From Glaciihabitans sp. INWT7 (GTDB taxonomy: Bacteria; Actinomycetota; Actinomycetes; Actinomycetales; Microbacteriaceae), in NCBI RefSeq assembly GCF_014217685.1, contig NZ_CP043653.1, positions 310,001 to 374,000 of the forward strand: DNA of 64,000 nt, read 5' to 3'. Positions 8,290-15,424 of this stretch are shown piece after piece. The notes beneath the pieces were generated by a model. That model did not search any database, was not told the DNA's origin, and saw nothing but the letters and a program-made list of their open reading frames with translations. Both the position numbers and the translations under genes were made by a program. How positions within the stretch are numbered: the first letter of the stretch is position 1; the number at the start of each line of letters is the position of its first letter.

Positions 8290-8335
8290 CACTAGATGTA
8301 GTGGAATGACAGGAGTGTCATTCCGGTTATATAGT
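8290..8335 (+). promoter_or_regulatory. Promoter with two tandem inverted repeats (putative operators) for the 27-aa peptide gene
   Basis: Two palindromes with 4-base spacers lie back to back: CACTA-gatg-TAGTG (8290-8303) and GGAATGACA-ggag-TGTCATTCC (8303-8324, 9-bp perfect arms). ATGACA in the second left arm (8306-8311) can act as a -35 box, with TATATA (8328) or TATAGT (8330) as -10 at 16 or 18 bases. An operator inside the promoter would allow tight repression. The same palindromes could instead form an RNA or DNA hairpin. The assignment is from sequence pattern only. Confidence 0.5.
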
Positions 8336-8424
8336 AAGAACCCACGACGGCACCGATAGTGAACAAGCGGTGACGGAGTACCAAACTTTCCGCACTTTCC
8401 ACCCATCAGCTTCAGGAGGCTCCC

Positions 8425-8508
8425 ATGGACAACGACAACAGCTTCATCGGCGGATACGCAGTACCGGTCGACCCGATGGACGACCTGCAGTGCGACAGCT
8501 GCCAGTAA
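8425..8508 (+). CDS. 27-residue peptide with C-terminal CxxC (orphan small gene)
   Basis: A 27-codon ORF starts with MDNDNSFIGGYAVP and ends DDLQCDSCQ. A near-perfect AGGAGG (8414-8419) lies 5 bases before the ATG. A putative regulated promoter is 90 bases upstream and a rho-independent terminator begins 15 bases after the stop. The unit is therefore self-contained and looks well expressed. The peptide is acidic with no hydrophobic segment, and both cysteines are in the last five residues. No modification enzyme, exporter or regulator lies nearby. It could be a metal- or thiol-reactive microprotein, a RiPP-like precursor with maturases elsewhere, or a Cys-codon leader peptide. I do not recognise the family. 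Confidence 0.6.
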   Translation: MDNDNSFIGGYAVPVDPMDDLQCDSCQ

Positions 8509-8522
8509 GTCTCGATACAGCA

Positions 8523-8566
8523 AAGAGCCCCGGCCACCAGCGATGGTGACCGGGGCTTTCTCTTTT
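8523..8566 (+). terminator. Rho-independent terminator after the 27-aa peptide gene
   Basis: The stem AGCCCCGG/CCGGGGCT (8526-8533 with 8550-8557) continues inward with CACC/GGTG around the loop AGCGAT, and TTTCTCTTTT follows. It is one of the clearest terminators in the window, and it separates the peptide gene from the MaoC-like operon at 8611. Confidence 0.85.
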
Positions 8567-15351: not shown

Positions 15352-15424
15352 AGGGCGGTGGCTCAATTGGTAGAGCAGCGGTCTCCAAAACCGCAGGTTG
15401 CAGGTTCAAGTCCTGTCCGCCCTG
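15352..15424 (+). tRNA. tRNA-Trp (CCA)
   Basis: 73 nt cloverleaf: acceptor AGGGCGG/CCGCCCT, D-arm GCTC/GAGC, anticodon stem GCGGT/ACCGC with loop CTCCAAA giving anticodon CCA (15385-15387), and T-arm GCAGG TTCAAGT CCTGT. The 3' CCA is not encoded. It lies directly before secE, the conserved bacterial arrangement. Confidence 0.95.

Follow-up and report, generated by a model that had tools for sequence, protein, structure and literature searches.

A gene of 27 codons in the actinobacterium Glaciihabitans sp. INWT7 very probably encodes a detached C-terminal redox tail of NrdA, the large subunit of class I ribonucleotide reductase (RNR) – a reading to which we assign a probability of about 0.88. 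The gene occupies positions 8425–8508 on the plus strand of the window, by which we mean the whole stretch of 64,000 nucleotides that was analysed (positions 310,001 to 374,000 of contig NZ_CP043653.1, assembly GCF_014217685.1, family Microbacteriaceae). Its assignment as a free-standing tail draws on the open reading frame itself, tblastn searches, alignment, pN/pS ratios and co-occurrence. The case is one of sequence comparison, and its parts are the homology of the peptide to the NrdA tail, the split of that tail from the NrdA chain, the co-occurrence of the two, the NrdR-type boxes that their genes share, purifying selection on the peptide, and genomes in which the tail is available in trans only.

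The gene and its immediate surroundings

The open reading frame runs from an ATG at 8425 to a TAA ending at 8508 and specifies 27 residues (MDNDNSFIGGYAVPVDPMDDLQCDSCQ), with the Shine–Dalgarno sequence AGGAGG on the plus strand at 8414–8419, 5 nt before the start codon; both features had been called correctly in the initial annotation, a note made from the letters of the sequence. Towards the end of the frame, two cysteine codons (8491–8493 and 8500–8502) delimit the stretch C-D-S-C (8491–8502), a putative redox-active CxxC pair. The gene is flanked by a divergent NlpC/P60 gene and, on the other side, by two dehydratase genes of the HadA/HadB type with murB behind them. When the whole window was scanned against Rfam at gathering scores, the sole match was a tRNA at 15352; searches of Pfam and NCBIfam with the 27-residue peptide returned 0 matches.

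The strong terminator that had also been proposed stands in part. A 14-pair hairpin (stem 8526–8557) does follow the stop codon, and the plus strand does continue with TTCTCTTTT, the whole feature extending over 8526–8566, but the terminator scan scores the hairpin on the minus strand only. By that scan, which found 1 terminator against a mean of 0.9 in shuffled sequences, the hairpin by itself does not exceed chance; taken together with TTCTCTTTT, and with the folding, it is a likely intrinsic terminator. The stretch 8340–8566 folds with a z-score of -2.15, and a GC-rich hairpin stands 3′ of the stop in about 25 of 30 folded relatives, as judged by eye and with no control.

Conservation of the peptide

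A tblastn search with the 27 residues (E at most 1) found matches in 37 of 99 genomes, the organism’s own included: in all 13 of the same genus, in 21 of 47 from other genera of the family and in 3 of 39 from other families of the order. Three of the matches fall in the organism’s own genome. The copies share the end (V)PxDPM[DE]x[LIV]QC[DE]SCQ – as found by a motif search that preselected for such a motif – and have variable N-termini, with variant ends such as LYCDSCQ, LVCESCQ, CDGCQ, LICEGCQ and EFQCDSCQ. Across the 160 loci that were fetched, being the best 80 of 344 viral and the best 80 of 414 named-genome loci by score, the end reads QC[DE]SCQ in 156, QC[DE]GCQ in 3 and QCDACQII in 1. 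Nearly all copies close with CDSC or CESC, then Gln and the stop codon, and a few have CxGC or CxAC; both cysteines and the final Gln are invariant in 15 hand-chosen representatives, one of them a fused NrdA tail.

For 11 same-genus genes of the window type, pN/pS – a sum over all pairs, which are not independent of one another – is 0.106 for the whole open reading frame and 0.020 for the last 19 codons, 6 of which are invariant, 12 show synonymous variation only and 1 varies nonsynonymously. Judged by these ratios, the peptide is under purifying selection. The initial annotation had named as its test the presence of the frame in relatives and the balance of synonymous and nonsynonymous changes; that test was run, and the peptide passed it with a pN/pS of 0.02. 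Its broader picture of a conserved CxxC microprotein, thiol-related and apparently regulated, agrees with the conservation in 37 of the 99 genomes, with this low ratio over the last 19 codons and with promoter motifs that recur in relatives.

Homology to the C-terminal tail of NrdA

By alignment, the peptide end PxDPM[DE]xLQC[DE]SCQ shares homology with the CxxC redox tail at the C-terminus of NrdA, and about 15 residues carry this homology. When peptide genes are clustered by their neighbours, two main contexts emerge: ahead of a MaoC–MaoC–murB cluster, as in the window, or between proteins of ~850 and ~330 residues. In the organism’s own genome, the ~850-residue neighbour is the class I RNR subunit NrdA (model PRK06539, 1631 bits; ATP-cone, all-alpha and barrel domains) and the ~330-residue neighbour is the small subunit NrdB. 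This NrdA is the only RNR large-subunit match in the genome at E 1e-20, and it aligns with solved RNRs across the positions that we take to be those of the active-site Cys and Tyr residues. It ends without a cysteine after a KRGFG-type motif, and the tail then follows as a separate open reading frame.

Six genomes from other families encode NrdA and the tail as a fusion. Examples from other families of the order end in ...VVGGVACPVDPMEALQCESCQ and ...DDATCPVDPQERLQCEACQ; fused tails are found at loci L058, L059 and L125, and more distant fused ends of the form CEACQ at L126–L128. The fetched loci contain 41 distinct NrdA-type C-termini, 34 of them Cys-free and 7 with Cys. A tail open reading frame lies directly downstream of 30 of the 34 Cys-free ends by regular expression and of one more by tblastn (L132, genome G050), and of none of the other 3; the 7 ends with Cys comprise 6 fused ones, all from other families, and one (L046, genome G021) that runs on out of frame. 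At this last locus, the nrdA frame passes its expected stop and continues, out of frame, through the tail gene, which may reflect a sequencing error or a real change.

The Ala/Pro-rich end of split NrdA proteins carries an (R/K)(R/K)GFG motif, often repeated (e.g. L035:6019–6280), and the same motif is present in the linker of fused NrdA. It is possible that this motif is a docking site.

The window gene is not part of an NrdA chain; it is a separate open reading frame at another locus, so that its product would work like the tail but is no NrdA C-terminus. Read-through of the nrdA stop codon was considered as a general mechanism for joining the two and rejected, because the tail lies in another frame at 18 of 25 split junctions (+2 in 16 and +1 in 2). 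At the other 7 junctions it is in frame after TAG or TAA – after TAG at the organism’s own nrdA-adjacent copy – and some read-through fusion is possible at these 7.

Co-occurrence with NrdA and tails available in trans only

In the set of 99 genomes, the 37 with the peptide are the same 37 that have an NrdA at 70% identity or more (>=70%), and the remaining 26 of the 60 family genomes have a distant RNR only (~27–32% identity) and no peptide. A larger set of 199 family genomes, each at least 95% complete and searched at thresholds of E 1e-100 for NrdA and E 1e-3 for a model of the tail, has NrdA in 83 and the tail in 84, these being all 83 and one more (G179). That one is the only tail match among the 116 family genomes without this NrdA, and it is weak (E 2.9e-5, in a 16-residue frame).

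Tail copies number one in 6 of these 84 genomes, two in 55, three in 16 and four to seven in 7. Microbacteriaceae with this NrdA usually have one copy between nrdA and nrdB and another elsewhere, and so does the organism’s own genome; since most genomes are multicopy, the free copy may do no more there than add to the supply. Three genomes from three genera (G027, G104 and G177; 98, 100 and 96% complete) lack a tail between nrdA and nrdB. The one tail gene found in each of them stands by itself and has tandem NrdR-type boxes; it lies 33 kb from nrdA in G027 and has a promoter of the window type in G104 and G177. With a single, free-standing copy as the only one in these genomes, the tail should work in trans. 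The converse is seen in G148, which has the nrdA-adjacent copy only; in G234 the contig ends, so that this genome is uninformative on the position of the tail.

Instead of being a working reductant, the free-standing copy might regulate or inhibit RNR as a decoy in competition with the nrdA-adjacent tail. We regard this as improbable, although it accords with the two or more copies in 78 of the 84 genomes with a tail and with a promoter of the gene’s own that bears an additional palindrome, missing from the own nrdA promoter (described below). In G027, G104 and G177, the free-standing gene is the only tail found and must therefore supply the function there; both cysteines and the terminal Gln, moreover, are invariant in the aligned set.

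The promoter, its NrdR-type boxes and a central palindrome

In the 2 kb that were scanned, there is one sigma70-like promoter, with the -35 hexamer ATGACA at 8306–8311 and the -10 hexamer TATAGT at 8330–8335, both on the plus strand (10/12; shuffled sequences gave a mean of 0.1, sd 0.4). It overlaps a perfect inverted repeat at 8303–8324, GGAATGACA-N4-TGTCATTCC, and the description of the promoter as palindromic in the earlier note was accurate. The repeat overlaps the -35 hexamer and is a putative extra operator. Absent from that note were a second palindrome, CACTAGATGTAGTG at 8290–8303, and its partner, TATATAGT at 8328–8335; these are NrdR-type box 1 and the core of NrdR-type box 2, both read on the plus strand, the first located by a two-box pattern search of the genome and the second, which overlaps the -10 hexamer, by promoter scan and pattern search. 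The perfect inverted repeat lies between the two.

The 3.48 Mb genome has exactly 2 sites for the box pattern CACTANATNTRGNG-N22-25-TATATAGT, one at the window gene and one ahead of nrdA, against 0 for a reversed control; the box centres are 33 bp apart at the window gene and 32 bp apart at the own nrdA. A scan of 28 nrdA loci found paired boxes, with a spacing of 32 or 33 bp, at the called start or upstream of it in 23 and none in 5 (one of these genes being cut). Among the best 80 of 414 genome loci, a box pair lies upstream of the tail in 67, compared with 0 of 8000 shuffles, and 13, one of them nrdA-adjacent, are without a box pair by regular expression. NrdR itself is encoded in the organism’s own genome (TIGR00244, over the cut-off at 147.3 bits).

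The NrdR regulon is described as marked by a pair of palindromic boxes spaced by about three turns of the helix, which in many cases overlap the site of RNA polymerase, and NrdR tetramers as suited to boxes so spaced (PMC9110341). The promoter of the window gene has tandem boxes with this spacing, which suggests that NrdR represses the gene. The gene is like the regulon in its two boxes and unlike it in that the target is a non-catalytic gene of 27 residues and that a third conserved palindrome stands between the boxes. This central palindrome, GAATGACA-N4-TGTCATTC, is conserved in 69 box-pair stretches (the window and 68 from the best 80 of 414 genome loci), with a best arm match of 8/8 in 50, 7 in 16, 6 in 2 and 5 in 1, figures that have no shuffled control beside them. 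In the organism’s own genome it is unique, the next best site having 3 mismatches, and the promoter of nrdA there lacks it.

Two TGC codons and a hairpin ahead of the next genes had led the initial annotation to offer, as an alternative, a cysteine-codon leader peptide whose attenuator controls the MaoC/murB genes, and the murB homologue that stays downstream in 64 of the best 80 of 414 genome loci would suit such an arrangement. The proposal nonetheless appears very unlikely: the non-Cys residues are under purifying selection, conservation (pN/pS 0.02 over the last 19 codons) not being confined to the Cys codons; the same peptide is found away from any MaoC/murB neighbourhood, between nrdA and nrdB, on plasmids and on phages; and the box pair is common to the window gene and nrdA. 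As little weight attaches to a RiPP precursor or a thiol- or metal-sensing peptide, both of which the note had also put forward, and to which a short, Cys-bearing product with a conserved C-terminus and a variable N-terminus would answer. No RiPP modifying enzyme was found among the four nearest window neighbours (NlpC/P60, the HadA-type and HadB-type dehydratases and MurB), and the second copies in the RNR operon, the tail in all 83 genomes with NrdA and the fused homologues at NrdA C-termini speak against precursor and sensor alike, and both were rejected. A functionless relic or duplicate, which redundancy with another copy in most genomes might suggest, is equally hard to credit in view of the purifying selection, of the promoter and murB synteny kept at many loci, and of its being the sole copy in three genera.

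Tail genes on phages and plasmids

The detached tail is not confined to chromosomes. When a phage collection was searched, 6 records matched: four from Clavibacter phages (CMP1 and CN1A, with two accessions apiece), one from Pontimonas phage phiPsal1 and one from a Klebsiella phage. The five Clavibacter and Pontimonas records are weak matches (E 0.03–0.7) that rest on the conserved motif; the Klebsiella match (E 8) was taken as chance. The tail copies in CMP1, CN1A and phiPsal1 are unannotated, and those in CMP1 and phiPsal1 come directly after a gene named hol or holin. Plasmid matches amount to 19 records, from Clavibacter, Leifsonia and Gryllotalpicola; one copy in the plasmid set is annotated as ‘ribonucleotide-diphosphate reductase subunit beta’.

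A scan of viral contigs confirmed 344 of 355 stretches. All of the best 80 of these 344 loci have a tail open reading frame, and none has an NrdR box pair. NrdA was found in none of their fetched flanks, which reach at most 4 kb to each side, so that nrdA may lie elsewhere on a viral contig; NrdB, 78–82% identical to the organism’s own, lies near the tail in 2 of the 80 (L167 and L215). Of 20 neighbour proteins from 9 viral contigs, 16 matched a phage family, among them terminase, portal and head genes (L190, L203) and endolysins (L190, L197, L216). At L203, the tail is situated between terminase and portal.

Several further chromosomal copies were seen in the course of these searches. The third copy in the organism’s own genome (L034:5700–5778) reads as the C-terminus of a small protein with no assigned family, and may be a mobile-element gene to which the tail is fused. 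Extra copies at L038 and L039 (G053, a genome with 6 tail matches), L065 (G004) and L060 (G041) have, by eye, prophage- or mobile-element-like contexts.

It is fairly likely that the tail is a mobile, interchangeable microprotein, encoded on chromosomes in cis, in trans or both, and that Microbacteriaceae phages and plasmids bear it on its own so as to supply the ribonucleotide reduction of the host or to take it over; the tail would then be one of the smallest auxiliary metabolic genes.

A proposed mechanism

In an ordinary class I RNR, the cysteine pair at the end of NrdA re-reduces the active-site disulfide after each turnover; work on the tail of yeast Rnr1 reportedly found that it acts across monomers. 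In Microbacteriaceae with this NrdA, the chain instead ends Cys-free soon after the (R/K)(R/K)GFG motif, and a peptide of ~20–40 residues would supply the CxxC separately. One tail copy usually comes directly after nrdA, the window gene being the second, free-standing copy upstream of the MaoC–MaoC–murB cluster. As this copy would have its transcription driven by a separate promoter that bears NrdR-type boxes, the supply of tail should follow nrdAB expression: NrdR would repress the gene for the 27-mer, and peptide dose would track nrdAB.

The 27-mer itself may dock on NrdA, enter the active site in trans and deliver its dithiol there, after which a redoxin would recharge it. These steps parallel those described for known enzymes, in which the C-terminal cysteine pair reduces the RNR active site and redoxins reduce the pair (PMC6187632, PMC5704485). 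A tail encoded by a phage or plasmid would top up the host enzyme or take it over.

Relation to known systems

All class I RNRs are described as containing a cysteine pair in NrdA (PMC6187632). Like the tail of class I NrdA or NrdE, the peptide has a terminal CxxC, its PVDP-LQC-CQ matching the fused tails in other families of the order; unlike that tail, it is a separate product of 27 residues with its own promoter. The nearest known system is the class II RNR of Pseudomonas aeruginosa, NrdJa and NrdJb, in which a separate subunit is reported to supply the redox cysteines, both parts being needed in vivo and encoded in an nrdJab operon (PMC4520616). The two are alike in placing redox cysteines on a separate polypeptide – in the present case as judged from sequence – but the Pseudomonas system is of class II and lies in an operon, whereas here the enzyme is of class I and the tail, with 27 residues, has several copies per genome, a remote locus and a presence on phages. 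Nor does the Microbacteriaceae system combine a class II enzyme with a folded Cys-rich domain: its NrdA has an ATP-cone and lies beside NrdB, and the partner is a 27-residue peptide with no Pfam match.

Among phages, split RNR genes are described in connection with introns, inteins and endonucleases, with nrdA-a/b of Aeh1 and nrdJ-a/b of phiYS40 as examples (PMC3653736). These share with the present case a large subunit in pieces, but the phages concerned carry the catalytic gene, whereas in the viral flanks fetched here the tail is present and nrdA is not. Phage T4 is reported to supply a thioredoxin for the phage RNR (PMC6459318), which is likewise a phage-supplied reductant part for ribonucleotide reduction; it is, however, a redoxin serving T4’s own NrdAB, whereas the tail in the present case is similar to the one in the host family. 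A split RNR with a separate redox part is of a known kind. For a split class I tail or for this gene, phage copies included, no description was found in the literature searched, which covers subscription journals little, and the class I and phage cases are new with respect to that literature.

Significance

To our knowledge, no enzyme but RNR makes DNA precursors de novo. A separate gene for a 27-residue tail, with its own promoter and also present on phages, would contradict the view of the cysteine pair as part of every class I large subunit. It would also constitute a natural two-component system in which the dose of the tail can be varied freely, so that its action in trans is directly testable. 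Microproteins that annotation misses may, on this example, be parts of an essential enzyme and cargo of phages.
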